From: a virus | Length of the DNA: 22,521 bases | Direction: 5' to 3' (one strand) | Virus record (IMG/VR): IMGVR_UViG_3300031140_000047 | Span: 1 to 22,521 of that record | In this document: positions 8,876 through 22,501 of the stretch, in pieces | How the letters are laid out: each line of letters starts with the position of its first letter | Numbering within the stretch: position 1 is the stretch's first letter | Notes under the pieces: model-generated | What the model saw: only the letters and a program-made list of their open reading frames with translations | What the model was told of the DNA's origin: nothing | Database searches by the model: none | Translations under genes and position numbers: made by a program

Positions 8876-10345
8876 TTACACTCCTTTGAATAATACAAAG
8901 TTGTTAGCAGCTTGCACTACTAAACATCTTTCAGATAAGAAGTTAACTTCCATTGCATCAAGAGTACTTGTGAAAGCACCACCTGCTGATCCAGTTAACC
9001 AAGACTTCATACGACGATCTTCTGTTTGAGAAGCTCTGTATCGCACGTGTAAGAATGGTCTACGGATGTTAGTTCCTAAAATTTGATCGTATACTGTAGA
9101 AGTTCCAGCTGGCACTAAGATACCTTCGATAGAAGATGGTCCCGTTTGCGCGCCACGAGTAGAAGCATCATTTAAGTATTTCCAGTCAGTTTTATAGAAG
9201 TCATAAGATCCTCTGCGGAAACCACTAAATCCAAGATTTAATGCCATTTCTTCAGAATTTTCAAATAATCCATAAGCAGTACCACCTTGAGATCCTTGAG
9301 ATACAGCACTTAGCATGTTATCAAATTCTAGTGAAGTTGAACGCTGTAAAAACAACATGTTTTCTTCAATAGCTCCTTGAGTATCTAAGTTTTTCAAAAT
9401 CTCATCAAAGTCATCAATTCCGCTTGCGCCACTAAATCCAACTTCAACATTACCTCTAGACTGTACAGCAGCAAATAAACCTTGAGTACCTTTAAACGTA
9501 GCTGCTAAAGCTGCTGATCCTGCCGCTGCAAGCTCACCTTCAATAACACTCATTTCTAAGTAATCTTCAAAACGTAAACGAGTTTCAGATTCAGCTTTTA
9601 AATACCATAAGTATCCAGAAGTACCATCTTCAGTAGCAACTTCTACCCAACCGATCTGAGCCATGTCAGAACCATTGATAGTATAAGTATTACGAATGAT
9701 GATAGGTGAATTAGAAAACTGAGTAAATGAAGGATCAATACTGATGTTAGTAGTTCCAACAGCTGGATTAACACCACCTGCTACAGAATTAGTTGTTTGA
9801 GATCCTTTATTAAATTCAGAACCGTATACAAAAATCTTAACGATAGCACCTAAACCAGCTGTGTTTGCAGCAGTATAAGGAGCAACTGTTAATTGACCAG
9901 CAGTAGCGGCTCCAGGAGCAGCTAAGCTACTAGCTGTAACGATACATTTTAATTCTTGACCAGCTCCATCCATAGCAACTATAGTTTGCCCTGGAGATAC
10001 TACGTTAGTAATAGCCGGAAGACCAGCTGCAGCTACACGAACAGGAATAACAAGTACGTTAGCGCCTGCATTACCTACATTATCATAAGAGATATGTAGT
10101 CTGTTTTGTTCTGACCAAATAACTTGATCTGATGTCATTGGCATTTCAGCTCCAACCATACGTAAGAATCCAGAAAGAGTTCTATTTCCGTAACGTTCTA
10201 CTTCTTGTTCGTAGATCTCAGGTAGATACTGTTGTGCGAAATCATTGGCGTTAGCGCCGCCTGTGTTAAATGCTAAATAGTTTGTCGCTAACAGTTGTTG
10301 TTGTTGCGATGGTACTATCGAACCGAATTGTGGACTTAAAGCCAT
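8876..10345 (-). CDS. Major capsid protein, HK97 fold, 489 aa
   Basis: This subunit forms the icosahedral shell. Its length and position after terminase, portal and scaffold fit. Recognisable blocks are the N-terminal helix region (DFAQQYLPEIYEQEVERYGN), WVEVATEDGTSGYLWYLKAE near 233-252, and a late segment (MALNLGFSGFRRGSYDFYKT, LGTNIRRPFLHVRYRASQT). These resemble capsid proteins of uncultured marine and freshwater Bacteroidota phages. Residues about 92-175, Ala/Gly/Val-rich and beta-patterned, look like an inserted domain that may protrude from the capsid. No N-terminal prodomain is evident, consistent with a separate scaffold upstream. Codon choice is more GC-ending than in neighbouring genes, as expected for a highly expressed protein. 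The ATG is 12 nt after the scaffold stop, and a strong hairpin follows the gene. Confidence 0.85.
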   Translation of the reverse strand: MALSPQFGSIVPSQQQQLLATNYLAFNTGGANANDFAQQYLPEIYEQEVERYGNRTLSGFLRMVGAEMPMTSDQVIWSEQNRLHISYDNVGNAGANVLVIPVRVAAAGLPAITNVVSPGQTIVAMDGAGQELKCIVTASSLAAPGAATAGQLTVAPYTAANTAGLGAIVKIFVYGSEFNKGSQTTNSVAGGVNPAVGTTNISIDPSFTQFSNSPIIIRNTYTINGSDMAQIGWVEVATEDGTSGYLWYLKAESETRLRFEDYLEMSVIEGELAAAGSAALAATFKGTQGLFAAVQSRGNVEVGFSGASGIDDFDEILKNLDTQGAIEENMLFLQRSTSLEFDNMLSAVSQGSQGGTAYGLFENSEEMALNLGFSGFRRGSYDFYKTDWKYLNDASTRGAQTGPSSIEGILVPAGTSTVYDQILGTNIRRPFLHVRYRASQTEDRRMKSWLTGSAGGAFTSTLDAMEVNFLSERCLVVQAANNFVLFKGV

Positions 10346-10357
10346 AATAGTTTAATT

Positions 10358-11557
10358 TTAATTGTTAAATTTTCTTGTTTTAATCTTAAGCTTTGAAGAA
10401 TCAAGACCGCTAATTGCTTTCACTTTCAATCCATTAACAAATACATTACCATCTTGCGTTTTGCGAGGCTCTGTACTTATGTTTTTAGATTTAGCTAGTT
10501 GACTTTTAATCGCGTCAGTTTTACCTTGTTCATAAAAGTGCTGCGCTATAGTGTCAGCGTTTCGCGCTGCGTATAAAGCTTTGTGATAACCTTTCGTATC
10601 AACAACTTCTCCCTTGTCATTTAAGAACGTCTTAATGAATGTAGAAATGTCTTTTTGACTATCTCCAACCTTAACTGGATCCTTGATACCATATCTAAAC
10701 TTTTTCTCTCCAACTTTAAAATCAAAACCTTTGAAATTGCTGTTAAGAAGTTCGTCTGTTTGGCCGTGGAACTTGTTTTGGTTAACTTTACTGAGCTCTT
10801 GCTCTTCGTTGTATCGGTTGAAAAAATCTGTAGCTTTTTGCTGCTCTTGATTTACTCCAGGTCTCAACTTGATCTCTGCATAGTATTCATCTTTAAGCGA
10901 ACTCAAATAGCTTTTAGCTTTTGCAACTTCTTCTTTATATGCGAGTTTCTTTTTACGGATATCTCGCGCTTCATCTAAATCCTCATCAAAATTAAAATTA
11001 TCTTCAATTACAAAGTCAATTTCTTCTGAATCTAAATGTGGTTTAGCTTGTTTATAGTATTCTTTTAATAATGCCTCTCCATCTACATTACTGTAGTCTG
11101 CGTTTAATCTTGCATAGTCATCTATAGTACCACCTGTCTCTTTCATGAAAGAAACTAATTTTTCTAGATTTTCTGGAACATCTTGTGTTTCAGCTTGCGG
11201 TAATACTTCTTTTTGTTCCTGTGAGGTAGTGGCGTTTTCAGTGCCTCCAACCATTGTGATCTCTTCAGAACTATTGTCTTCATCTTCTATTAATTCTAAA
11301 GGTGATTCTACTTCTTCATTTTTGATTTCAATCTTAGTAATCTCGCCGGACTGCTGTACTTGTTCTCCCACTTTAGGTATATCTCCGGTTTGTTTATCAT
11401 CAACCACTGCTTCTGTTTCTCCGATCGGAATGGCATCTTCTGTTGGTTTTTTAGTTAAATCTACTTTGGTGATTTCTGGAATAGTATCCATGTCTTTGTA
11501 CTTAGGCATGTGATGCTTAACTTTAAATTCACCTTCTTGTTTTACTTGTTCTGACAT
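10358..11557 (-). CDS. Probable scaffolding/capsid assembly protein, 399 aa
   Basis: The protein lies between portal and major capsid genes, the classic scaffold position. Residues 1 to about 130 are disordered and acidic, rich in Glu, Asp, Thr and Gln (IELIED-type runs, SSEEITM, TTSQEQKEVLPQAETQ). Residues about 130-330 are helical and charged, with likely coiled-coil stretches (RDIRKKKLAYKEEVAKAKSY). The C-terminus is basic (SSKLKIKTRKFNN), as expected for a tail that binds coat protein. No protease motif is visible, so a fused protease is not supported. The primary sequence of scaffolds is rarely conserved, so this call rests on position, composition and charge layout. The start is the ATG directly after a 13-nt A/T leader; the portal stop is 28 nt upstream. 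Confidence 0.65.
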   Translation of the reverse strand: MSEQVKQEGEFKVKHHMPKYKDMDTIPEITKVDLTKKPTEDAIPIGETEAVVDDKQTGDIPKVGEQVQQSGEITKIEIKNEEVESPLELIEDEDNSSEEITMVGGTENATTSQEQKEVLPQAETQDVPENLEKLVSFMKETGGTIDDYARLNADYSNVDGEALLKEYYKQAKPHLDSEEIDFVIEDNFNFDEDLDEARDIRKKKLAYKEEVAKAKSYLSSLKDEYYAEIKLRPGVNQEQQKATDFFNRYNEEQELSKVNQNKFHGQTDELLNSNFKGFDFKVGEKKFRYGIKDPVKVGDSQKDISTFIKTFLNDKGEVVDTKGYHKALYAARNADTIAQHFYEQGKTDAIKSQLAKSKNISTEPRKTQDGNVFVNGLKVKAISGLDSSKLKIKTRKFNN

Positions 11558-11585: not shown

Positions 11586-13997
11586 CTATCTTGGCGTAAA
11601 CTGCTCTAGTCCAAATCCATCTAGATTATCATTACCTGCTGATTCAAAATTCTTAGGTAATAAATCGTTTTGTCTTTGATCTATCAGTTCGCTTTGTTGT
11701 GTACCTTGCATTTGTAGTCTTTGATCTTTTCGATCTTCTATTTGTGCTTCTTTTTGTGTATCCGCTTTGGCTCTCATTTCAGCTAACTTAATTTGATACG
11801 AAAACTCTTCAGCCATTAAACCTCTTTTTATTTGAGCTTCTTGCTCCATTCGTTCGATTTCAAATTGGGATTTTGCTTGTTCTATTTGAACTGTTGTTTG
11901 AGCTAAAGCTTGTTGCTTCTGTACCTCTGCAGCTGCTGCTTTTTCTGCAGACTCACTATTAGCTTGAGCTTGCGCTTGAATGTTTTCCATTTGAGCAGCT
12001 CTTTCAGCAGCTTCATTTTCAGCTTGTCTAAACTTAAGCAATGTATTAGCTAGCTTTATATTCTGTATATTTCTTATATCTATAGCGTCAGCTAGTTTTA
12101 TACTTCCAGCTTGTAGTGCTATTTGTATACTTTTTTCTAATTGAGCTTTATCTTCTTCATCTGGCTCTAAATCTAAAAATATTCCAAAGTCATGTAAAGA
12201 CAATGAGTCTATTTCTTGAAGAGTAGCGACATTGAAAGCATTTATACTGTTTAATAAAGAAGCTTTAGTTAAAGGAAACTGAAGCATATCACTAACTCTT
12301 AAACTAACGTTTTCACAAGAGCGTATAGTTAGATACATTAAAGACTGTAATATATGTCTTGTAGCTGTATTAGAATTAGCTGCTGCTAGTTTTTGCAAAC
12401 CAACTAGTGCGTTTTTATCTGGAGAGCTACCGTCTCTAGCTTCATTAAGCCCGGTTACATCGCGTATCATTTGTAAGTAATATTGATACGTTTGTATCAT
12501 GGCTTGTATCTTAGATATACCTGAAGAACTTTGAAGTTCTTGAATAGGTATTTTACCTCTATTCATTTCGCCATCTTGAGTGAGCGATCTACCTACTATT
12601 GTACCTGTTTGGAAGTACATGTTTAATGCTTCTGCTGCGTTATAGTTTGTTCCGTTACCTAAATCAACTTCAGCTAAACCATCAACGTCTACATATACTC
12701 CATCTGGAACTAGTCTAGCTAGCACTTGCTGTAGTTTAAGATGCGTTAATTGAATCATATCAGCAAAACCAGTTGTTCTACTTACTATAGACTCTATACG
12801 TCCTTGATACATTCTAGGAGCAGATATAACATAATTCATGTTAACCTTTGTAGTATCGCCGTAAGGTCGTGTCATGTTTTCAGACAATTCCCATTTAAGT
12901 ATACTATCACCCATACCTAGTATTTTTGCTCCTGTGTATAAAACCTCTATAGATCTTGAAGCTCTTTCAAAGTTATCACTAGGTGGTGGATTAAAAGTAT
13001 CTTGCTTTTCTAAGATTTTTTCTAGTCCTTGCTCTGTTTGTTTTATTTTAAATACTTGATCTTGATATGTCTTGTATTCAAAGAATAATACTTGATGTTG
13101 ATTAACATCACTATTAACCTGCCAATCGCTTTGAGCATAGTTTTGGCGGCCTGGATATTTCTGTATTCTTTCTAGCTCTTCATCTGTTAAGTCTGGAAAC
13201 AATTTTTTTATTTCTGGAAGAGTTATACTCTTTATTTCTCCAACATAGTATATGTCTTCAAAATTAGGATCATCTGTAGCTGAATAAACTAGATTAGCTG
13301 GATTCACATAGTCTATAGTAATTCCTTCAGCTAAATTAAAACTAGTCTTAACAGCTGATATACCTAAAACTGTTAAATCATAAGCTAATCTTTTTTTAGT
13401 TTCGTCAAATTTATTTGAATCAAGAACATTGTTTATAACTTCTTCTTCAGCTATCTCAATGCTCTGCTTATAATTTAGTTGCATGTATAGATCTAACTCA
13501 TCTTGGTCTTTAGGAAGATTATCGGGATCTGTTGAGGCAAAGAAATTTTGACCTGTTGCTTGAGATAGTTTTTCTATCGCTGCTTTGTTTTTAATGTCAC
13601 GCATGGCATTAGAAGCAAAATCAGTACGTTGTTTTAACGCAAATGGATCAGAGGCAAATGAATTTAATTCATATCCCTTTTCAGTCATACCATTAACTAC
13701 GATATCTACAAACTTAGATAGCACAGGTATTGGTTTCCAGTCTAAATTTAAATAAGACAAATCACCATTATTTGACAATTCGTCCTTATATTTCTGCACA
13801 GGTTGTTCACCTCTAGCGTATAATCTTAGTCTATTAAAGTTCTGGAAATTATAGGAAAACCTATTCTGTCCACTGTTATTTCTAAACCACTCTTGTTCAA
13901 TAGCGTTTCCAACAGCTAAACCATATTCAAATGATTTCTTTTCTTCTTCAGGTACCACCTGATCTGGAAAGATGCTATTATTATTAGTATAGACCAT
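11586..13997 (-). CDS. Portal protein, 803 aa
   Basis: The portal is the dodecameric ring at one capsid vertex through which DNA is pumped; it sits directly after the large terminase. The N-terminal region has NRLRLYARGEQPVQKYKDEL and WKPIPVLSKFVDIVVNGMTE, a pattern seen in crAss-like and related Bacteroidota phage portals. The middle carries PRMYQGRIESIVSRTTGFAD and MIRDVTGLNEARDGSSPDKN, typical of the portal stem and wing. From about residue 655 to 770 the chain is a long Ala/Gln/Glu-rich coiled coil (AERAAQMENIQAQAQANSES), a probable barrel extension or DNA-facing crown. The length is usual for this group, about 800 residues. It starts 3 nt after the terminase stop and ends in TAG, an ordinary stop here. 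Confidence 0.85.
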   Translation of the reverse strand: MVYTNNNSIFPDQVVPEEEKKSFEYGLAVGNAIEQEWFRNNSGQNRFSYNFQNFNRLRLYARGEQPVQKYKDELSNNGDLSYLNLDWKPIPVLSKFVDIVVNGMTEKGYELNSFASDPFALKQRTDFASNAMRDIKNKAAIEKLSQATGQNFFASTDPDNLPKDQDELDLYMQLNYKQSIEIAEEEVINNVLDSNKFDETKKRLAYDLTVLGISAVKTSFNLAEGITIDYVNPANLVYSATDDPNFEDIYYVGEIKSITLPEIKKLFPDLTDEELERIQKYPGRQNYAQSDWQVNSDVNQHQVLFFEYKTYQDQVFKIKQTEQGLEKILEKQDTFNPPPSDNFERASRSIEVLYTGAKILGMGDSILKWELSENMTRPYGDTTKVNMNYVISAPRMYQGRIESIVSRTTGFADMIQLTHLKLQQVLARLVPDGVYVDVDGLAEVDLGNGTNYNAAEALNMYFQTGTIVGRSLTQDGEMNRGKIPIQELQSSSGISKIQAMIQTYQYYLQMIRDVTGLNEARDGSSPDKNALVGLQKLAAANSNTATRHILQSLMYLTIRSCENVSLRVSDMLQFPLTKASLLNSINAFNVATLQEIDSLSLHDFGIFLDLEPDEEDKAQLEKSIQIALQAGSIKLADAIDIRNIQNIKLANTLLKFRQAENEAAERAAQMENIQAQAQANSESAEKAAAAEVQKQQALAQTTVQIEQAKSQFEIERMEQEAQIKRGLMAEEFSYQIKLAEMRAKADTQKEAQIEDRKDQRLQMQGTQQSELIDQRQNDLLPKNFESAGNDNLDGFGLEQFTPR

Positions 13998-14000
13998 TTA

Positions 14001-16220
14001 TTATATTATTTTTGAATTTTCACCTGTATTATTATATTTTCTAAAACCTAAAGACACTTTTGATATAACTCTTTGTGCTACAGGCGTATATCTATTTTTA
14101 TTGCAAGCCATTATAGCTAAACCTGAGCTTATAGAAGCATCATGTTTTGTTCTGTTGTTTATATTGAACTTTTCCCAGTCTTCTAATGTTCTTTGAAAAT
14201 ACATGTTACCATAACCTTGATCTTGTACGCCTATATGGTGTTCTATATAATCTTCTATTGCAGCAGCGTGAGCTTGTTTTATATCCTCACTTGAGTTAGG
14301 TATTCCACCTATTTCTCTTTCGGTAACAGATAATTTATGCATGACCTTGTCTGGTCTATTCATAGAGTAACCTCTGTAACCTCTTCTTTTTATATAATAC
14401 AAAAGTCTAGGTTTATTATTCTCTGCTAATATTGGCATACCATAAAAAACCAAAGCCATTAAAACGTCTTCAAAAAACATTTCAGCAGTTTGTGGTCTAG
14501 CTATGTATTCTAAAAAGAATAAATTAGGAGGAACGTCTTCCATTGAAAACTTAGTTAAACCATGTAAAGCACCGTTGGATCCTCTACCATCTACCGTTCC
14601 TGATATGTCATAACTATCACAGCCAAATGCGCCACAATGATCATTACCTGGATATTTTGTATTGTTTTTTAATATATACTTATTCTGCAAATTACTTGGA
14701 GGAACCCAACTAACGAAAAATCTACCATTTTTACTTGGTAAAAACATCACCCTAGTATCTTTAATCCCACCTTCCCATTGAAAATTACCCTGCGTAACAA
14801 CATTAGTGTTACGAAGATCTTCATTATAGTCTATTTGCTCGTATATTTTAGTTAAATTAAACAAAGCTTGCTTAGCTTCATCTCTAAAAGCATGCTTAGT
14901 TGTTCTTGGAAATTGTCTATAGTATTCATTTAAACCGTCTTGATCTGTTTTCAAACCATCAACTTCATTCTCCCAATGCGATATAACACCTATATCTATG
15001 TCTTCTCCATCAATACCTTTAATTGGTTTTTTCGGAGTGTCGAATACAGGAAATCCATGAGTATCAATGTATCCTTCGTAGTTCCATTCCATAGGTATGA
15101 ACAAACTATATAGTCCTGAACTAGTCTGTCCATTGCGGTTTCTTTCGGTGACGTCCGAAGCTTCGTATAGTTTCTTAAAATTTGCTCCACCTTTATCTAA
15201 TGCGTTTGAGGTAGAACCCATCATACATTTTCCTACTATTTTTCTACCTAATCTTAAAGTTGTTTTCGTGACCCTCCAGTTGTTGAGGATGTTGTCCGGT
15301 CTCTCCCATTTACCCGATTCATCGTGGACGAGGAGCTTGAGTTTCTCTCCGTCGTACGAGTTGTCACCGGTATTCTTCCAGTCGATCGTGGTGTCGAGAC
15401 CGTCTTGTATCTCCTCGCTGGCCTCTTTAATCGAGTTTCTCGTGAGCCGCTTAGACGGTACTTTGTAGGATAACTCCGTCTTTGGTCTTTCCATACCGTC
15501 TTGTACGGGCTTGAAAAAGAACGGGTAGTTAAGTGATATGGGTACAACCTTGTCTGTAAACATCTTCTTAGCATCAGCTCCCGATTTAGAGAGTATCCCA
15601 AACCTAGCATCTCTTGATATTGTAGCGAGGTTAACAGTGTCTGCGGATGCCATGAATGAGAATCCAGAACGCCTGTTCTTAAGATAGCACATTCCGTAAC
15701 TACGGTTGTCTGCCTTGCAAGCCTCCCAGAATATATAGAATAATCTGTTTGACTCCCTAAAGTCTGCTGACCCCACATCAATTTTAGTCCACTGCAAGTA
15801 CATGTACTGAGTACCAGTAATATAAGTAGGAATACCTTTGTTGTAGTACCAATAACCTTCTTCACGTTTGATAAATTCTTGGTTAATATAGTCATACCAT
15901 TTATCTTTAAACCCTTGCGGGTATTGATTCCAGTCAAAGACTGTTTGTATTTTTTTTAATTCTTCAGGTAGCTTTTTAACTTCCCAGAATTGCTCGTTAG
16001 TTTTTTTAGATCTTTTATATACTTTTTCAGCTAAAGGTAATGCTATTTTTAGATTTTGAATCTCGTATATTTCACCTATCTTACCTGTCTTGCTTATAAC
16101 AACAACATCATGCTCTTTGTTATATCCGTAATCCCATTGGTTGTAACGGTTTTTTCTTTTTACAATATGAGGTTTTATGTGGTTATCAACTACACTATAT
16201 AGATTTTGAATATAAATCAT
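14001..16220 (-). CDS. terL: Terminase large subunit (packaging ATPase and nuclease), 739 aa
   Basis: TerL docks on the portal, drives DNA into the procapsid by ATP hydrolysis and cuts concatemers. The ATPase half shows a variant Walker A (YLKNRRSGFS, residues 179-188), Walker B with catalytic acid (LKLLVHDESG, 295-303; D300, E301) and a motif III-like GKCMMGSTSNA (330-340). The RNase H-like nuclease half shows D535 in FGCDSYD, E600 in ILAENNK and D694 in TKHDAS as likely metal ligands. The first 100 residues are a family-specific extension. The length fits crAss-like and other Bacteroidota phage terminases. ATG 16220 overlaps the preceding TGA as ATGA, so coupling to the 90-residue gene is likely. 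The ATPase-coding part is markedly GC-richer than the rest (see 15265-15780). Confidence 0.92.
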   Translation of the reverse strand: MIYIQNLYSVVDNHIKPHIVKRKNRYNQWDYGYNKEHDVVVISKTGKIGEIYEIQNLKIALPLAEKVYKRSKKTNEQFWEVKKLPEELKKIQTVFDWNQYPQGFKDKWYDYINQEFIKREEGYWYYNKGIPTYITGTQYMYLQWTKIDVGSADFRESNRLFYIFWEACKADNRSYGMCYLKNRRSGFSFMASADTVNLATISRDARFGILSKSGADAKKMFTDKVVPISLNYPFFFKPVQDGMERPKTELSYKVPSKRLTRNSIKEASEEIQDGLDTTIDWKNTGDNSYDGEKLKLLVHDESGKWERPDNILNNWRVTKTTLRLGRKIVGKCMMGSTSNALDKGGANFKKLYEASDVTERNRNGQTSSGLYSLFIPMEWNYEGYIDTHGFPVFDTPKKPIKGIDGEDIDIGVISHWENEVDGLKTDQDGLNEYYRQFPRTTKHAFRDEAKQALFNLTKIYEQIDYNEDLRNTNVVTQGNFQWEGGIKDTRVMFLPSKNGRFFVSWVPPSNLQNKYILKNNTKYPGNDHCGAFGCDSYDISGTVDGRGSNGALHGLTKFSMEDVPPNLFFLEYIARPQTAEMFFEDVLMALVFYGMPILAENNKPRLLYYIKRRGYRGYSMNRPDKVMHKLSVTEREIGGIPNSSEDIKQAHAAAIEDYIEHHIGVQDQGYGNMYFQRTLEDWEKFNINNRTKHDASISSGLAIMACNKNRYTPVAQRVISKVSLGFRKYNNTGENSKII
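15265..15780 (-). other. GC-richer segment inside terL covering the ATPase core
   Basis: Two consecutive 60-base blocks (15301-15420) each contain 32 G+C, and blocks from 15421 to 15780 contain 25-29, whereas 14401-14460 contains 18. Codons in the segment shift to CTC, GTC, ATC, GAC and TCG where the rest of the gene uses TTA, ATA, GAT and AAT. It codes for about residues 147-319, including Walker A and B. The left boundary is abrupt, near residue 319. Long overlapping open frames here are by-products of this composition. Confidence 0.7.
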
Positions 16221-16489
16221 TTTGATCTACCTTCTGCAAATCCTTTAAAAGCTTCTACTTTTGCTTCTAATGGTTTGTCATTTAAAATATTTTCTTCAGC
16301 TTCTATCCTAGCTAATATTTCAAAAGCATCAAATATAGCTAACTTTTTAGTAGCGGCAGCATTTTTAAGTCTATCAGCCGAGATATCATCTTCTGAGTCT
16401 ACGATCTTTTCTTTTGCTACCTTTATAAGTTCTTCAACTGCTATTTGCCCAGCTTGGATTATATTCAGTTTCGTTTCCTTTATTTTCAT
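16217..16489 (-). CDS. Small helical protein upstream of terL, candidate terminase small subunit, 90 aa
   Basis: This is a 90-residue charged, almost entirely helical protein (ISADRLKNAAATKKLAIFDA, then FEILARIEAEENIL). It ends in TGA overlapping the terL ATG (ATGA), and this position suggests a terminase small subunit or a terminase-linked factor that recognises phage DNA. No helix-turn-helix can be drawn with confidence, and 90 residues is short for a TerS, so the role is inference. The only ATG places the start 56 nt inside the end of the GroES-like gene in another frame. Both frames have sensible sequence across the overlap, so this is a true overlap and not a frameshift. Confidence 0.6.
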   Translation of the reverse strand: MKIKETKLNIIQAGQIAVEELIKVAKEKIVDSEDDISADRLKNAAATKKLAIFDAFEILARIEAEENILNDKPLEAKVEAFKGFAEGRSK

Positions 16490-17039
16490 ACTTAATTAGA
16501 ATATCATTTGATTGCATACAATAAAGTACCTCACCGTCAATTAAAAACTCAAACTCTCTGTTCTTTTTAAATCCGACTAAATCTCCATTGCTGATTTTAA
16601 GAGCTTCTAAGGTGCTATTACTATATTTAACTATACCAATGCACTTTTTAAGCTTACTTAAGTTAGAAGTGTCCTTATCAACCACAGGCTTAATAAAGCA
16701 GTAGTTGTCTAGGGTTTCCCAAGAGCTTTTGCTCTTTTTCATATAAACCTGATCGATAGAAGCAAAGCACATATCATCTTTAAAGAATTTAGTGCTATTA
16801 ACTGACTTACCTTTCACGTTGTAGTATCTTCTAAATAGATTGTGATGAACAATAACTCTATCACCTTTACTTAACTTAGTTTTATAAGCTAAAGGCGTAG
16901 CTATTATTTCTGCTTCTCTATTTACAAACTTATGGTCAGAGATACTAGAATTAACTATTAGTTTTTTATCACCAATAGTTAACTCGTTATTATATCTTTC
17001 ACCTATAGGTTTTACTATGAATTGGTGAATACTATTCAT
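16434..17039 (-). CDS. GroES-like (chaperonin-10 fold) protein with two tandem domains, 201 aa
   Basis: Two GroES-like halves can be aligned by eye. Half one (about 5-98) has FIVKPIGERY, REAEIIATPL, LSKGDRVIVHHN and CFASIDQVY. Half two (about 113-184) has YCFIKPVV, KKCIGIVKYSN, ISNGDLVGFKKN and MQSNDILIKYE. Each carries the strand, the GD-V-V turn and the final D/SIDQV or SNDILI strand of chaperonin-10. GroES is about 95 residues, so this is a duplicated version. By analogy with T4 gp31, a phage co-chaperonin could adapt host GroEL for folding the capsid protein; a structural use of the fold is equally possible. No mobile loop is obvious. ATG 17039 overlaps the previous stop as TAATG, and the C-terminus overlaps the 90-residue gene by 56 nt. 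Confidence 0.6.
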   Translation of the reverse strand: MNSIHQFIVKPIGERYNNELTIGDKKLIVNSSISDHKFVNREAEIIATPLAYKTKLSKGDRVIVHHNLFRRYYNVKGKSVNSTKFFKDDMCFASIDQVYMKKSKSSWETLDNYCFIKPVVDKDTSNLSKLKKCIGIVKYSNSTLEALKISNGDLVGFKKNREFEFLIDGEVLYCMQSNDILIKYENKGNETEYNPSWANSS

Positions 17040-18165: not shown

Positions 18166-18546
18166 TTATTTTACTTTGTCTTTTATTTTTTCGTATGTTC
18201 TAAGACCTCCTAATCCTAGCATACCTAGAAGTACGGTCATTAAATGTTCCATTTGTAATGGTGGTGGAGCGTCAGTTGTATTAGTTATCCATATAAAGAG
18301 ATCTCTAATAACGAAGTTGTAAGCTAATGCAAACCCACATATCCAACCTATAAACGGTCGCCATCCGGCAACGAATAAGGTTCTATGTGAAGCTTCAGCT
18401 AGATTTATTTTGGTTTGAAGTTCTATTAATTTTTCGGGATCTAATTCTTTCCCTTTAATTGCTTCTCTTATTTCCCAAGCTAAACCTCCAGCTACAGACT
18501 TCCTACCTTCACCTCCTTTTAAAAGACCGAGTAGTACTTTCCACAT
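18166..18546 (-). CDS. Holin of the GTA-type three-TM family, 126 aa
   Basis: Holins make holes in the inner membrane at the timed end of infection. The N-terminal half is amphipathic and charged (GGLAWEIREAIKGKEL, KLIELQTKINLAEASH). It is followed by R-TLFVAGWRPFIGWICGFALA, a hydrophobic stretch around residues 56-88, and another at about 100-115 ending LLGMLGLGGLRTYEKIK. The GWRP-x-IGW block and the final GLGGLRTYEK are hallmarks of the phage holin family first described in gene transfer agents (PF11351-like). The length of 126 is usual. The ATG overlaps the stop of the HExxH gene as TAATG, suggesting coupled expression of the two. Confidence 0.85.
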   Translation of the reverse strand: MWKVLLGLLKGGEGRKSVAGGLAWEIREAIKGKELDPEKLIELQTKINLAEASHRTLFVAGWRPFIGWICGFALAYNFVIRDLFIWITNTTDAPPPLQMEHLMTVLLGMLGLGGLRTYEKIKDKVK

Positions 18547-18863
18547 TATTTTTTAGTTTTATTATACGCTTCTTTTTCCCAAGGAAGATTTTTAGCACCT
18601 TCTTTCATTGAAGCTCTTGAGTATTTTTTACCTTTCCATATAACGTTGTCATCATCATAGTCTAAATCGCCTCGTTTCATTTGGTCGATATGAACCATTT
18701 CGTGATCTATAACTTCGTCTATCTGTTCAGGATCTTTTATTTTGTTATTTAAAGTAATGCTTCCATTATTGTTAGCTTTACCTAATACACCATCTTCCAT
18801 ATCTACATTGTAAATAGGAGTGTTATCAGTACTGTAAGGCGCACCTTTCATTATAAAGCTCAT
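18546..18863 (-). CDS. Small HExxH metallopeptidase-like protein, 105 aa
   Basis: The motif DHEMVHIDQMKRGDLDYDDD at about 53-72 contains HEMVH (H54, E55, H58), the zinc site of many metallopeptidases. E98 in PWEKEAY near the C-terminus is a plausible third ligand. The N-terminus MSFIMKGAPY and DNTPIYN resembles the S/A/T-P motifs found in neighbouring small proteins. At 105 residues it is a minimal catalytic domain without signal peptide or membrane segment. It overlaps the holin start (TAATG), so a role in lysis is possible, such as cutting peptidoglycan cross-links. Maturation of virion proteins is the main alternative. Activity is inferred from the motif only. Confidence 0.65.
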   Translation of the reverse strand: MSFIMKGAPYSTDNTPIYNVDMEDGVLGKANNNGSITLNNKIKDPEQIDEVIDHEMVHIDQMKRGDLDYDDDNVIWKGKKYSRASMKEGAKNLPWEKEAYNKTKK

Positions 18864-18866
18864 AAA

Positions 18867-19025
18867 TTATTGTTTATAAGGAAAAACTTTATTTAAAGTT
18901 TCTTTTCTTTGTTGACAACCACAGGGAATATTTAATCCCTGTGATACTTTGTCAACGAAGGTTTTGATTCCAGTTGCTTCTGTAAATTTCTCTACGCTAT
19001 CACCGAAACCTTTTGATTTGCTCAT
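18867..19025 (-). CDS. Small CGC-motif protein, 52 aa
   Basis: This short gene reads MSKSKGFGDSVEKFTEATGI, then KTFVDKVSQ and GLNIPCGCQQRKETLNKVF, ending PYKQ. The PCGC--RKE-LN--FPY pattern is one I associate with small phage proteins near holin and structural genes; no function is known to me. The two cysteines could form part of a metal site or a dimer disulfide. The start is strongly supported: its ATG overlaps the stop of the 132-residue gene as TAATG. It ends 3 nt before the ATG of the HExxH gene. A large inverted repeat (18911-18956) lies inside the coding sequence. Confidence 0.75.
   Translation of the reverse strand: MSKSKGFGDSVEKFTEATGIKTFVDKVSQGLNIPCGCQQRKETLNKVFPYKQ
18911..18956. 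repeat. Two-tier inverted repeat inside the 52-aa gene
   Basis: The inner stem CACAGGGA pairs with TCCCTGTG (8 bp, 8-nt loop), and the outer arms GTTGACA and TGTCAAC pair (7 bp), with short unpaired spacers. It lies fully in coding sequence. No T tract follows, so an intrinsic terminator is unlikely. Confidence 0.7.
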
Positions 19026-19423
19026 TATGCAAAAGTAGCTGTTCCCCAGAACATTTGAGCTCCATTTGGAAGTGCTACTGTAGCAGCTGCTTGGTCATTA
19101 CCTAAAGAACAAGTAGTTACTACGCCACCTGGATTTGCTGTCATAGCTGAATATACTGCGTCTTCTAAAGGATTTCTTTGTCCGTCTACAAATGCTGGAG
19201 CTACTAAAGCAGATTGACTAGTTGAAGGTTGAAGAGTTAAAGATGTGTAACCAGCGATAGTGTTTCTACCAGTAAGTCCAATAATTACACTAGATTGAGC
19301 TCCTGCTGCTCCTGCTCCAGCAACTGTTGTGATGTCTTCTACGTTTATCAAGAGCGGTGAAATCGGGGCAGCTGGTTGAGTAGCGCCTGTAAGCGTAATG
19401 TTAAATTTGATGAATTTTGCCAT
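19025..19423 (-). CDS. Probable abundant virion protein (decoration-like), 132 aa
   Basis: A 132-residue protein, rich in Ala, Thr, Gly, Val and Pro, with few charges. It opens with MAKFIKFNITLTGATQPAAP and a LLINVEDITTVAG strand. Later blocks are SVIIGLTGRNTIAGYTSLTL and NPLEDAVYSAMTANPGGVVT. Short proteins with this FIKF-T-----LINVEDI plan occur in environmental phages, including marine ones, as presumed small virion components. No membrane segment is present. Codons are relatively GC-ending, hinting at strong expression. Its leader is unusual: six exact heptamers end 3 nt before the ATG. The stop overlaps the next ATG as TAATG. The virion role is inferred, not shown. Confidence 0.75.
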   Translation of the reverse strand: MAKFIKFNITLTGATQPAAPISPLLINVEDITTVAGAGAAGAQSSVIIGLTGRNTIAGYTSLTLQPSTSQSALVAPAFVDGQRNPLEDAVYSAMTANPGGVVTTCSLGNDQAAATVALPNGAQMFWGTATFA

Positions 19424-19426
19424 TGT

Positions 19427-19468
19427 GTTTGTTGTTTGTTGTTTGTTGTTTGTTGTTTGTTGTTTGTT
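19427..19468. repeat. Six exact tandem copies of a 7-bp unit in the 132-aa gene leader
   Basis: GTTTGTT on the plus strand (AACAAAC on the minus strand) is repeated six times without a mismatch, 42 bases in all. The array ends 3 nt upstream of the ATG at 19423-19421. No CRISPR-like spacers are present. Confidence 0.9.
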
Positions 19469-19498
19469 GGCTAGGTTTTAGACAGTCCTAATCTGTTT

Positions 19499-19741
19499 TT
19501 ATTCGTAATCTTTTTTAGACTTACTGTCATCACCTTTTTTACCACCATACATAGCAGCGGGTGATTCTTTTTTCCCATACATAGATAATGGAGATGAATT
19601 AGAATGCTTAGACATAAATGAACCTCCGCTAGCGTGTGAAGCTATAGGATTGTCACTCATTAAGTTTTTCTTTTCTTGAGATGAAGATTCTTGTCCGTAA
19701 CCTTTGTTTAGGTTTTTTACTGGAGTTTTGTCTTTATACAT
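19499..19741 (-). CDS. Small disordered protein with SP-MYG motifs, 80 aa
   Basis: This 80-residue protein is low-complexity and mostly Ser, Lys, Gly and Asp, with no predicted fold. The second half carries SSPLSMYGKKESPAAMYGGK, two copies of an S-P-x-x-MYG-x-K unit. The N-terminus is basic (MYKDKTPVKNLNKGYGQ). No function is recognised. Its neighbours are likewise small, basic or disordered and share S/A-P motifs. It may be a minor virion protein or a binding adaptor. The ATG lies 20 nt after the 239-residue stop, and after its own stop there are 75 nt with the heptamer array. Confidence 0.75.
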   Translation of the reverse strand: MYKDKTPVKNLNKGYGQESSSQEKKNLMSDNPIASHASGGSFMSKHSNSSPLSMYGKKESPAAMYGGKKGDDSKSKKDYE

Positions 19742-19761
19742 AATTTTATTTTTTAGTTGGT

Positions 19762-20481
19762 TTATTTATATTGATTTGTAGCTCCTTTGTCTCCTTTTAC
19801 GTATGCTCTGTTTTTTATTCTACTTGCTTTTTTCTCAAGTCTATTAGTAGCAACCAATTTACCTTGAGATTTTTTAAGATCAGCTTTTCTTTCTGCTTTA
19901 CCTAGTCTTTTTTCTCTTCTATTTTGTCCTAAAGTAGTATAAGATGAAGTTGAATTAGATTCAGTTGACGCTGATGCTGTTCTAGCACTTGTCATTGGAT
20001 TTGATCTACCGCTACCGCCAGTAAGTCCAAGTCCACCAGTAGAAGCTTCAGAAACGCCATAAGATCCCTTAAGAGAAGCTGGTTTATCTCCAATCGTAAT
20101 CATTCCAAAAGCTTGTGGTTTCTTGGTTTCCGCATTAGCATTCACTTTGTTACCACTACCCATTCCTGTACTTATTTTAGGTACTGAAGTTAGGGTTTCT
20201 GGTTCTAAATTAACACGGCTTGTAGAGCGACCTGGGGGCGTCGTGTGGATTCCTCCATGGAGTTCTGCAGGAGAATCAGATATAGCTTTTTGTAGATGTT
20301 GAGGTAATTGATCTTGATCACCTACTAAAGCTTTTTCAAAAGGTGAATCTTTTTTATAATCTTTATCAGCATCATGCAATTGTTTTTTAGCATCATAGAT
20401 TAGTTCACGATCGTGAATCATTTCTTCTTTTCTTGAGTGTCTTGCATTTCCGGTATATTGACCGAAGTGTCCTTTTTCCAT
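19762..20481 (-). CDS. Disordered basic protein, 239 aa, unknown function
   Basis: Three parts can be seen. Residues 1-50 are charged and helical (KEEMIHDRELIYDAKKQLHD). Residues about 45-190 are disordered, rich in Gly, Ser, Thr and Pro, with KKDSPFEKALVG and ISDSPAELHGGIH motifs. Residues 190-239 are strongly basic (NRREKRLGKAERKADLKKSQ). There is no signal peptide or membrane segment. The basic tail could bind DNA or RNA, and the design is reminiscent of internal head proteins, but no family is recognised. The gene lies between two small basic-protein genes, with about 20-nt A/T-rich gaps on both sides and no Shine-Dalgarno sequence. Confidence 0.7.
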   Translation of the reverse strand: MEKGHFGQYTGNARHSRKEEMIHDRELIYDAKKQLHDADKDYKKDSPFEKALVGDQDQLPQHLQKAISDSPAELHGGIHTTPPGRSTSRVNLEPETLTSVPKISTGMGSGNKVNANAETKKPQAFGMITIGDKPASLKGSYGVSEASTGGLGLTGGSGRSNPMTSARTASASTESNSTSSYTTLGQNRREKRLGKAERKADLKKSQGKLVATNRLEKKASRIKNRAYVKGDKGATNQYK

Positions 20482-20502
20482 TGTTTTAGTATTTATGTTT
20501 GT

Positions 20503-20781
20503 TTAGCATTTCCATCTTCTTCTAGCGGCTTTACCTCTTTCTCCGGTCCAACCTTTTGATCTAGCACAGAAAGATTTACGACGTTTAGCGTCTTTGCTCC
20601 CTGGTTTTACATCTCCAGTAACAGCAGTTTTTAACTTACTACCTGGATTTTGTGCTTTATATTTTTTAACTCCTTTGCTAGTCATGCCAGCGCCCTCTTC
20701 AGTTGTTCTGAAGTTTCTACCTTTCCCTTTAGTAGTTTTTCTTACTTTAGCTAAAGGCGAGTTATATTGTATATAAGCCAT
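20503..20781 (-). CDS. Highly basic small protein with Cys-Ala-Arg motif, 92 aa
   Basis: A 92-residue protein very rich in Lys and Arg. The C-terminus KRRKSFCARSKGWTGERGKA followed by ARRRWKC is a recognisable signature (a C-A-R-S block with a final R-W-x-C) that I have seen in small proteins of many marine phages and large DNA viruses. It looks like a nucleic-acid-binding segment with two Cys positioned for metal or disulfide chemistry. The N-terminus MAYIQYNSPLAKVRK carries the S-P-L motif shared with its neighbours. The charge would suit a DNA-condensing internal head protein, but that is inference. The gene follows a single-TM gene by 10 nt. Confidence 0.75.
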   Translation of the reverse strand: MAYIQYNSPLAKVRKTTKGKGRNFRTTEEGAGMTSKGVKKYKAQNPGSKLKTAVTGDVKPGSKDAKRRKSFCARSKGWTGERGKAARRRWKC

Positions 20782-20791
20782 ATTATGATTA

Positions 20792-20944
20792 TTACTTCTT
20801 TTCTTTAAGTTTTACCCATTTAGCTATTGTATACCCTATACTTATAAGTAATAAAATAACCTTTAGACCTACTTCTATGTGTGTCATACTCAATCCCAAC
20901 GCTATAGCATTAGTTCCTAATACTTTAAAATCCAAATGATTCAT
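20792..20944 (-). CDS. Small single-membrane-segment protein, 50 aa
   Basis: This short gene encodes MNHLDFKVLGTNAIALGL, then SMTHIEVGLKVILLLISIG and YTIAKWVKLKEKK. Residues about 24-44 form one hydrophobic helix followed by a basic tail, giving an N-out/C-in single-TM protein; the first 20 residues are also fairly hydrophobic. The ATG is 4 nt after the stop of the 73-residue gene, and TAA is 10 nt before the next start, so it fills the gap neatly. Small proteins like this occur in Bacteroidota phages and are sometimes listed as holin-like. With a GTA-type holin nearby, this may be a second holin, an antiholin or a membrane adaptor. Confidence 0.75.
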   Translation of the reverse strand: MNHLDFKVLGTNAIALGLSMTHIEVGLKVILLLISIGYTIAKWVKLKEKK

Positions 20945-20948
20945 TTTT

Positions 20949-21170
20949 TTAGTTCATTCCTAATCCAGCATCACCTTTAGCGATCTGAGTTATTGGTCCA
21001 GCTTTGTACATTGTAGGGGCTTTTAAAACCTGCATACCTGTAATACCAGAGCTAGATCCAGATCCATGTAAACGACCTGTTTGGTCTAACGGTCCGTCCC
21101 ATATTGCTGATTCACCTACTACTCCACTAGAACCTTTGTCTGCTTTTTGATGTGCTTTGTCGTTGTGCAT
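20949..21170 (-). CDS. Small Gly/Ser-rich protein, 73 aa
   Basis: The protein is 73 residues, disordered, with Gly, Ser and Ala runs (KGSSGVVGESAIWDGPLDQT, GSGSSSGITGMQVLKAP). The segment KAPTMYKAGPI matches the A/S-P-x-MY-x-x-G/K unit of the 80-residue neighbour. No fold, signal peptide or membrane segment is evident, and no family is recognised. It is packed 4 nt after the 38-residue gene and 4 nt before the single-TM gene, so it belongs to the same transcript. A role in the virion or its assembly is only a guess. Confidence 0.7.
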   Translation of the reverse strand: MHNDKAHQKADKGSSGVVGESAIWDGPLDQTGRLHGSGSSSGITGMQVLKAPTMYKAGPITQIAKGDAGLGMN

Positions 21171-21174
21171 AATT

Positions 21175-21291
21175 TTATTTTTTTGTTTTTATTGATTTTA
21201 ACATTTTATCAATCTTAACTGCTTGTCCTTTATGTAGTGCAGAAGCTTTTTTTAATTCAGCTGATATTTGTTTTAGTTTTTTAGCATCCAT
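21175..21291 (-). CDS. Very small basic helical protein, 38 aa
   Basis: The chosen ATG at 21291-21289 gives MDAKKLKQISAELKKASALH followed by KGQAVKIDKMLKSIKTKK. A longer frame in phase reaches back to 21372, but that would sit inside the 66-residue gene and its extra residues are hydrophobic and atypical. This start lies 4 nt after the upstream stop and gives a coherent amphipathic helix with a basic end. I recall similar MDAKK--K--G-L-KAS--H-GQA peptides in environmental phages. No function is known; such a helix could bind another virion protein. Confidence 0.65.
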   Translation of the reverse strand: MDAKKLKQISAELKKASALHKGQAVKIDKMLKSIKTKK

Positions 21292-21295
21292 AGTT

Positions 21296-21496
21296 TTATT
21301 TTTTACAACCAAAGTTGTTAGCATAATTAGCCATTTTTCTAACGCTAGGACTATATTTATCTTCACCAGCACTCATAACTGCAGAAGCAGCACTGCAGGC
21401 ATCATCAAAGCCATTTGATTTAGCCCACTTAGTAAATTTACCTTGGTTTTTCTTTTTTATTTCAGGAAAACCTTTTTTGTAAAATGGTGATTTCAT
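21296..21496 (-). CDS. Small basic protein with Cys motif, 66 aa
   Basis: The protein starts MKSPFYKKGFPEIKKK and continues GKFTKWAKSNGFDDACSAAS, AVMSAGEDKYSPSVRKMANY and ANNFGCKK. The KFTKWAK-NGF--AC--A block and the final FGCKK form a compact-looking helical unit with two Cys; I have seen this build in small phage proteins of unknown role. The N-terminal K-S-P-F-Y is a clear copy of the SP motif found in its neighbours. It is strongly basic, so a DNA-associated internal protein is plausible but unproved. The gap to the 331-residue gene is 9 nt. Confidence 0.75.
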   Translation of the reverse strand: MKSPFYKKGFPEIKKKNQGKFTKWAKSNGFDDACSAASAVMSAGEDKYSPSVRKMANYANNFGCKK

Positions 21497-21505
21497 ATTT
21501 TTATT

Positions 21506-22501
21506 TTAATTATCTAATTCGTCCATTTCTTGATCTTCAATATGTAAGGGTGTTCCCTTCATAGCTAGCATAGATGCTCTTTGACCGCTTCCAAATAATT
21601 GTGAGGCTACGTCAGTGTCTCTTCCTATTGATTGATTGCCAACAGGATTTGAATCCATTTCTAGCATTCTTTCTCCGGTGCCTGCGTAAGATCCAGATTC
21701 AGCAACTTGATTTGGTGGAGGTAATGATTCTTGAGTTGCTTCTTTTCCTCTTAATCCATACTTATCCATTAATCCACCAGCTGCTTGAGCTGCGGCTCCA
21801 AATACACCACCACCGCCTTGTGCAGAATCAGTTGGTTTTTGTCCTATAGCTTTTATTTCCGCCATTGATTTTCCTCCTAGCATGCTTCCAGCTATTGACA
21901 TAGCAGATTGACTTTGAGGTTGTGCCCCAGCAATTGAACCTACAGCACTTTCATTGTGATAAAAAGGTGAGTTTCCTTGTGAATCCTCAAATTGAAAATT
22001 AGGTTTAACTGAACCTTTTTTTCTGTCTTGAATCCCGCTGGCTTCTGCTTGTTGAGCTTTAAATAAATGGTAAAAATTATCACCTAATTTCGGATTATTC
22101 CCACTATTACTATTATTTGTACCACCTCCTTCTTTTTTCTGGGTTGAATAATCAGTATCCATGAATTCATCAACTTTAGTATCTTTATAGCTTTTTAAGT
22201 TATATTTTGCCATATTTTCTGCATGCGTTGCAGGTTTTTTAGCTGGACCAGTATTACCTTTACCCCATTTAATCTCCATAGCTCGTTGATGCTTTAAATC
22301 ACCAGCAGCAGCTTCAGCTGCTCTCTGATCTTTATTCATAGATGTGGTAATAGCTTTAGTGCCTAATTCGCTAGCGGTTTTAGCTATCTGCTTGCCTACT
22401 ATAGCACCCACTATTGGCTGTATAACTGTAGATGGATTTCTATAAGAAGATGCTCTTCCGTCAAATATATCTACTTTTTTAAATGGTGACTTTGATTGCA
22501 T
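21506..22501 (-). CDS. Low-complexity protein with SPF motifs, 331 aa, unknown function
   Basis: This is the first gene of the window in transcription order. The N-terminus MQSKSPFKKVDIFDGRASSY is followed by a hydrophobic-to-amphipathic stretch VIQPIVGAIVGKQIAKTASE (about 25-46) that may be a membrane-active helix. Residues 100-310 are disordered and rich in Gly, Ser, Gln and Ala. Further motifs are GNSPFYHNES near 180 and MKGTPLHIEDQ near 315. The design of a VGAIVG-type hydrophobic helix and a Gly/Ala-rich body recalls ejection or internal virion proteins of podovirus-like phages, but no domain is recognised. Its 20-nt upstream sequence to the window end is A/T-rich with no clear promoter. 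Confidence 0.7.
   Translation of the reverse strand: MQSKSPFKKVDIFDGRASSYRNPSTVIQPIVGAIVGKQIAKTASELGTKAITTSMNKDQRAAEAAAGDLKHQRAMEIKWGKGNTGPAKKPATHAENMAKYNLKSYKDTKVDEFMDTDYSTQKKEGGGTNNSNSGNNPKLGDNFYHLFKAQQAEASGIQDRKKGSVKPNFQFEDSQGNSPFYHNESAVGSIAGAQPQSQSAMSIAGSMLGGKSMAEIKAIGQKPTDSAQGGGGVFGAAAQAAGGLMDKYGLRGKEATQESLPPPNQVAESGSYAGTGERMLEMDSNPVGNQSIGRDTDVASQLFGSGQRASMLAMKGTPLHIEDQEMDELDN

Follow-up and report, generated by a model that had tools for sequence, protein, structure and literature searches.

In a 22,521-nucleotide stretch of viral DNA (IMG/VR record IMGVR_UViG_3300031140_000047, positions 1 to 22,521; hereafter the window), a run of small, otherwise unrelated proteins shares a short peptide tag, SP-[F/L/M/A]-[K/N/Y/H/Q], whose long form is SPxKMYGKK. 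The tag is over-represented, lies in disordered tails, is retained at the peptide level, is limited to one phage clade and is encoded on both flanks of the structural module. We propose, at a likelihood that we place just short of even, that it would serve as a docking or address tag of this clade, carried by proteins that flank that module.

An earlier note on this DNA had drawn attention to a shared S/A/T-P-(F/L/A) unit, and all twelve strings that it quoted are found in the window proteins. Within the window run, SP[FLA] occurs at 9 sites; per-protein shuffles give 1.04 on average, and none of 5000 reached 9. Because the motif had been framed on the window sequences, the test was run on other sequences, taken from relatives: 155 non-redundant run proteins hold 51 SP[FLA] sites versus 13.8 ± 3.5, while the genes from the GroES-like protein onward hold 8 versus 4.4 ± 1.9. 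A second test set was drawn from loci of relatives outside the framing of the motif and comprises 187 non-redundant small proteins (non-redundancy was cut at 35–50% identity, which leaves some distant homologues in the sets). Here SP[FLMA] is found 134 times versus 20.8 ± 4.5 in shuffles, and SP[FLMA][KNYHQ] at 95 sites in 56 proteins, compared with 5.4 ± 2.3 sites and 5.3 proteins; the latter pattern does not occur in a small control set of structural genes. The exact [SAT]P[FLA] of the earlier note gives 162 sites versus 55 ± 7 in the same 187 proteins, the whole excess lying in SP[FLMA]. TP (23 versus 18), AP (25 versus 25) and NP (21 versus 16) show no enrichment there, KP, GP and SP with any other third residue do not exceed chance, and the reversed [FLMA]PS falls below it (11 versus 21). 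The literal [SAT]P[FLA] definition was therefore rejected: S at position 1 stands, and A and T add nothing. The comparison with shuffled sequences, which the note had proposed, thus puts the motif far above chance and confirms an excess that is real and stronger than that note could see.

The genes of the run are as follows.

331-aa protein, first gene of the run: 21506..22501, minus strand, ORF call; SPF at aa 5-7 (22481-22489) and SPF at aa 178-180 (21962-21970).
66-aa protein (p66): 21296..21496, minus strand; N-terminal SPF tag at aa 3-5 (21482-21490).
WDGPL protein, 73 aa, conserved: 20949..21170, minus strand; 52 distinct orthologues.
DUF6321 protein, 92 aa: 20503..20781, minus strand; N-terminal tag extension with SPL at aa 8-10 (20752-20760).
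239-aa protein: 19762..20481, minus strand; tags SPF (20338-20346) and SPA (20266-20274).
80-aa protein: 19499..19741, minus strand; long-form tags SSPLSMYGKK (SPL 19586-19594) and ESPAAMYGGKKGDDSKSKKDYE (SPA 19556-19564).
52-aa protein: 18867..19025, minus strand; never tagged, common to the untagged sister clade.
HExxH protein, 105 aa: 18546..18863, minus strand; putative small zinc metallopeptidase with no clear tag in the window.

Of the seven proteins first said to carry the motif, five (331, 66, 92, 239 and 80 aa) have good tags, and the 73-aa and 105-aa proteins drop out. KGTPLH, KAPTMYKAG, KGAPYS and NTPIYN are not counted as tags because TP and AP forms are unenriched in the independent set; in addition, KAPTMYKAG is the C-terminus peculiar to one family, whose members differ freely in the residue before P (A, Y, F, V), and NTPIYN is a conserved predicted beta-strand of the HExxH fold. 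Elsewhere in the window, the terminase and holin are free of the motif, as had been claimed, but the GroES-like protein, claimed likewise, has one ATPL. One SP[FLI] is present in each of the scaffold-like, capsid and 254-aa proteins, isolated or, in the 254-aa protein, family-conserved: the SPFK there was rejected as the conserved site NQxSP[FL]xxEQ of one structural family. Pfam and PHROG searches with the 331-aa protein returned no match.

Tag sites fall within the first 15 residues more often than expected (41 versus 12.6) and lie in disordered tails and linkers, and the tagged proteins have a basic composition (median pI 9.8, K 15%) and a tendency to disorder. SPKK is a DNA-binding motif of histone H1 tails, and the lysine-rich, basic character of the tagged proteins, together with the many sites that read SPAK or SPFK, would suit SPxK as an SPKK-like motif of protamine-like DNA condensers. 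We consider this highly improbable: the tag has a hydrophobic residue (L, A, F, M) at position 3 in place of K/R and frequently N, H or Y at position 4, the long form continues with M-Y-G, and the SPKK pattern calls for S/T-P followed by two basic residues, whereas SP followed by residues other than F, L, M or A is unenriched.

The p66 family illustrates how the tag is held. In p66 it precedes a predicted three-helix microdomain whose end reads NYANNFGC; the AlphaFold model gives residues 1-10 low confidence and places helices at 20-27, 33-42 and 50-64, with the tag tail predicted to lie outside the microdomain. SP[FL] near the N-terminus is retained in 18 of 20 distinct members with variable flanking residues, and among 15 aligned members S and P are near-invariant while flanks and N-terminal length differ (N-termini include MKSPFYKKGF, MMTTNNSPFYKKAF, MYTQYSSPFLQEKF, MYISPLFKEF and MAYIQSPLLKKF). 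Conservation in orthologues, the other check that had been proposed, thus finds SP kept.

The tag serines use 98 TCN and 36 AGY codons (other serines, 579/365), and the three tag residues are found in 65 different 9-mer encodings. Both serine codon families occur in 14 of 37 multi-tag proteins, which argues that the peptide, and not the DNA, is what is kept; mixed codons and 65 encodings likewise argue against a single recently copied DNA cassette as the cause. Neutral or selfish spread of a repeat through disordered linkers, by duplication and recombination, would explain why modules such as SPAKMYGGKKGDESKSKRDYE occur several times in one protein and why serine codon use is mildly biased; indeed, the mild TCN excess suggests that part of the spread may be duplication or copying. 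As an account of the tag as a whole we regard it as very unlikely in view of the mixed codons and distinct encodings, the near-invariant SP with variable flanks in p66, and the single tags at the N-termini of microdomains.

At least six unrelated microdomains (DUF6321, DUF5872, CYxKV, KSEGG, NYANNFG and GSGPTA) are joined to the tag, and untagged versions of several of them occur in the clade itself or in pelagiphages. The 92-aa window protein matches Pfam PF19846 (DUF6321; E=2.3e-11, 44.6 bits, passing the gathering score of 28.5). Its N-terminal tag extension reads MAYIQYNSPLAKV, with the start given as MAYIQYNSPLAKVRKTTKGK; pelagiphage DUF6321 homologues start MAIRRTTKGK or MAIRKTTKGK, with no tag, and 17 of 28 distinct clade members have the tag within the first 20 aa. 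DUF5872 occurs in the clade as MYKSPLSKVNKTEKGASLRRWFKEEW and MAFKMNSPLKVKKTKKGASLRRWFKEEW, and without an N-terminal tag as MAVRKTAKGASLKRWFKEEW.

The earlier note had also described a second layer, MY-G/K-x-K/G. This layer does recur, but it is not separate: the 80-aa and 239-aa window proteins share modules with long-form proteins of relatives, and it is therefore the long form of the same tag, present in up to about 10 copies per protein in relatives. A DNA search for SPAKMYG across 2.9 million viral contigs (IMG/VR) yielded about 44 proteins with in-frame matches, often built of repeats (SPAKMYGGKKGDESKSKRDYE, SPMEKELVGKQxNLPxxLKxKIEAAPE, GGSWMSKHS); the modules of the 80-aa protein recur in these proteins. 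The SPF tag of the 239-aa protein sits in a module SPxxKALVGxQxxLP, and the relative L105 shows modules ...KKDSPAQRALVGDQDKLPGHLKKAISD...SPMSMYGKKESPAMMYGGKK, like those of that protein.

The window (22.5 kb of the virus record, ORFs called by simple rules) has all its main genes on the minus strand, in the order small-protein run (about 22.5-17.3 kb), GroES-like protein, large terminase (phrog_6681), portal (phrog_6547; 11586-13997), scaffold-like protein (10358-11557), capsid-like protein (phrog_13704; 8876-10345) and tail/neck proteins. Its terminase is 74-86% identical to those of 80 IMG/VR contigs, 62% to that of an uncultured Manatee Spring phage, 37-43% to those of most Elemovirus, phi38:1-type and phi13:2-type flavophages and 32% to that of a Tenacibaculum phage. 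The window falls in a large, mostly marine clade of podovirus-like phages that are uncultured and related to flavophages; from this relationship, marine Bacteroidota are the likely hosts. No known prohead protease was recognised among the window proteins. Just upstream of the terminase, two same-strand genes (16217-16489 and 16434-17039) share 56 bases, which they read in different frames.

Genes of this clade are found on the contigs that hold true tag proteins. Where the neighbourhood was unclear, all contigs but one have the clade terminase (66-95% identity), the exception being a partial contig with other clade genes. Outside the clade, no in-frame tag repeat was found in the IMG/VR search or in 84,980 bacterial/archaeal genomes; the 65 DNA matches to SPAKMYG in the latter were rejected, no frame having more than one motif. 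A tblastn search of a tag protein against 50,697 phage records gave no match, a scan with the L053 tag protein returned only itself, and a search of the available papers found mention of neither KMYGKK nor DUF6321. Two PHROG 'virion structural protein' matches in the tagged set were rejected, one falling upstream of the likely true start of its ORF and the other being a beta-repeat protein with one chance SPAQ. On four large contigs the tags lie mainly before the terminase and after a giant (1800-2711 aa) gene that closes the structural module, near lysis genes; one of these contigs (G009) has a small genome-wide excess, 4 sites versus 2.4.

A further reading takes the tag as the recognition or cleavage site of the clade's HExxH metallopeptidase, trimming proteins during assembly or after ejection, as the earlier note had suggested for the peptidase of the run. 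In this protein H54, E55 and H58 are invariant in 10 diverse members, and the conserved WE at 95-96 holds a possible third ligand. The AlphaFold model (pLDDT 78) makes NTPIY a strand of the fold and leaves KGAPY in a disordered tail, and the nearest Foldseek matches are the minigluzincin peptidases abylysin and selecase, at a weak level (prob 0.96, E 0.22, TM 0.37). The gene lies inside the run and is present in 82 of 83 complete tagged-clade runs, many of which were fetched by it, and some HExxH proteins are themselves tagged (L087, L100). The sister clade (freshwater, 31 usable loci) has neither the HExxH gene nor the WDGPL gene nor the tagged families. However, HExxH changes three times on the terminase tree, giving 1-3 independent contrasts, one of them well supported; these are too few for the co-distribution to be statistically testable, and the association was abandoned as statistical proof. 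In L076 HExxH is present and tags are absent, and L026 and L032 have neither near the terminase. Furthermore, cleavage would chop proteins with about 10 tags into many pieces, and the tags sit at N-termini, internally and near C-termini. What stands is the co-occurrence, which is almost one evolutionary split, and we judge the cleavage reading unlikely. As a side observation, the L155 contig (G010, 129.5 kb) carries a pair of HExxH genes on one strand, separated by about 64 kb, and may be a ~64 kb genome assembled twice over.

Two further proteins of the run are conserved. The WDGPL protein (VGESxIWDGPLxxxGxxxGxGSSSGIxGM) is highly conserved and is encoded in 62 of 83 tagged-clade runs and in 0 of 31 sister-clade loci, and its orthologues in the relatives L053, L075 and L374 have gained a real N-terminal SPL tag. 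It is a candidate partner of the tag, yet is itself tagged in these three relatives. The 52-aa protein is found at 57 of 83 tagged-clade loci and 16 of 31 sister loci, with no copy tagged, and is conserved in both clades as GLGDxIEKFTKATGIKxxVDxVSxGLNIPCGCxxRKxxLNKxFPYK. An endolysin gene, too, is present in tagged and sister clades alike.

In the sister-clade search, single matches (L084, L303, L328, L344) were not counted as tags, and SPFYFI of the GroES-like protein and RKSPLNQEEPN of an oxygenase-like protein were rejected as family-conserved sites. The latter belongs to a ~157-aa protein upstream of the terminase at sister loci such as L301, L307 and L309, whose conserved R[KR]SPLNQxEPNFIHTDEMMGD mimics the tag. 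The same clade bears on whether the tag might dock outside the virion interior, on a host factor, the phage chaperonin, or a DNA-replication or lysis complex. GroEL and cpn10 genes lie just upstream of the run in the tagged clade, where the tagged genes also have holin or endolysin genes in their midst or alongside, but the sister clade and the isolates encode chaperonins yet are without the tag. We hold docking of this kind to be doubtful.

A docking or packaging tag for one common partner, the function first suggested for the motif, gives the best fit because the tag recurs, is specific to the clade, is retained as a peptide, lies in disordered tails and is joined to unrelated domains. We would expect it to bind one phage structure present during assembly, for which the scaffold core, portal and inner capsid are natural candidates. 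A fast-changing set of small proteins would then ride in the particle and be delivered along with the DNA, and this cargo set would often include or accompany the HExxH peptidase, in a mode like that of T4, where diverse internal proteins are loaded by a shared capsid-targeting sequence (CTS). Several points weigh against this proposal. Tag serines have a mild TCN bias (Fisher p=0.0097). Orthologues without the tag occur in L032, L098 and L174, and not every protein therefore requires it. The tag run is missing from the nearest isolates (Elemovirus, phi38:1, phi13:2), so that their structural data do not transfer. Finally, the single receptor or partner, the virion location and the delivery are what we infer by analogy.

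More tentatively, the clade may use a modular address tag, previously undescribed, to bring rapidly exchanged, unrelated cargo (which in some lineages includes the HExxH peptidase) to one docking platform in the particle. If so, the tag would work as a plug-in, and virion delivery would be open to any small domain that acquires SP-[FLMA]. Much of a marine phage genome consists of short orphan proteins that homology cannot assign. With a shared tag, dozens of them could be placed in one complex at once, new cargo could be predicted from the motif alone, and phage particles could be targeted by a transplantable peptide. The tag would also give a testable place for the function of DUF6321 (cyanophages, pelagiphages) and DUF5872 (reported in an algal virus).

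Known systems resemble this one in part. Flavophages of Elemovirus, Pervagoviridae and Pachyviridae have a homologous terminase (at the 37-43% identity given above) and a similar late gene order but, unlike the window clade, lack the tagged run and the HExxH gene. Minigluzincins (abylysin, jannalysin, selecase) are HExxH chains of similar size (~100 residues) and the nearest solved folds to the HExxH protein, whereas the structural match is weak, the likeness is by predicted fold and the activity is putative. The T4 internal proteins are a highly diverse set with only the conserved CTS in common, and are encapsidated into the scaffolding core (PMC3012670). The SP tag too is a short conserved peptide on otherwise unrelated small phage proteins, but its SP-centred consensus appears unlike the T4 CTS. 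In T4 the CTS forms one N-terminal segment, which is removed by cleavage; the SP tag, known here from genes, may occur many times and anywhere in the chain.

The closest parallel in domain content is in cyanophages, which have the Cys-rich microdomains CYxKV, CWxGY and DUF6321 in common with pelagiphages and the window clade. In cyanophage Syn33 a 454-aa protein just after gp16 joins CYxKV, CWxGY and DUF6321, and in S-CRM01 a gene between gp16 and gp17 joins CWxGY and DUF6321; the cyanophage proteins of the gp16-gp17 interval (L379:4134-5498 and L377:2666-4216) are strings of these microdomains. Next to the terminase, these proteins (Syn33 T4-GC 119; S-CRM01 g34) thus have the same microdomains as the tagged clade, in one chain in the cyanophages and as separate small proteins sharing the tag in the clade. 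Domains that some genomes fuse and others encode separately often work together, and the comparison fits a tag that would do the work of the covalent link between microdomains.

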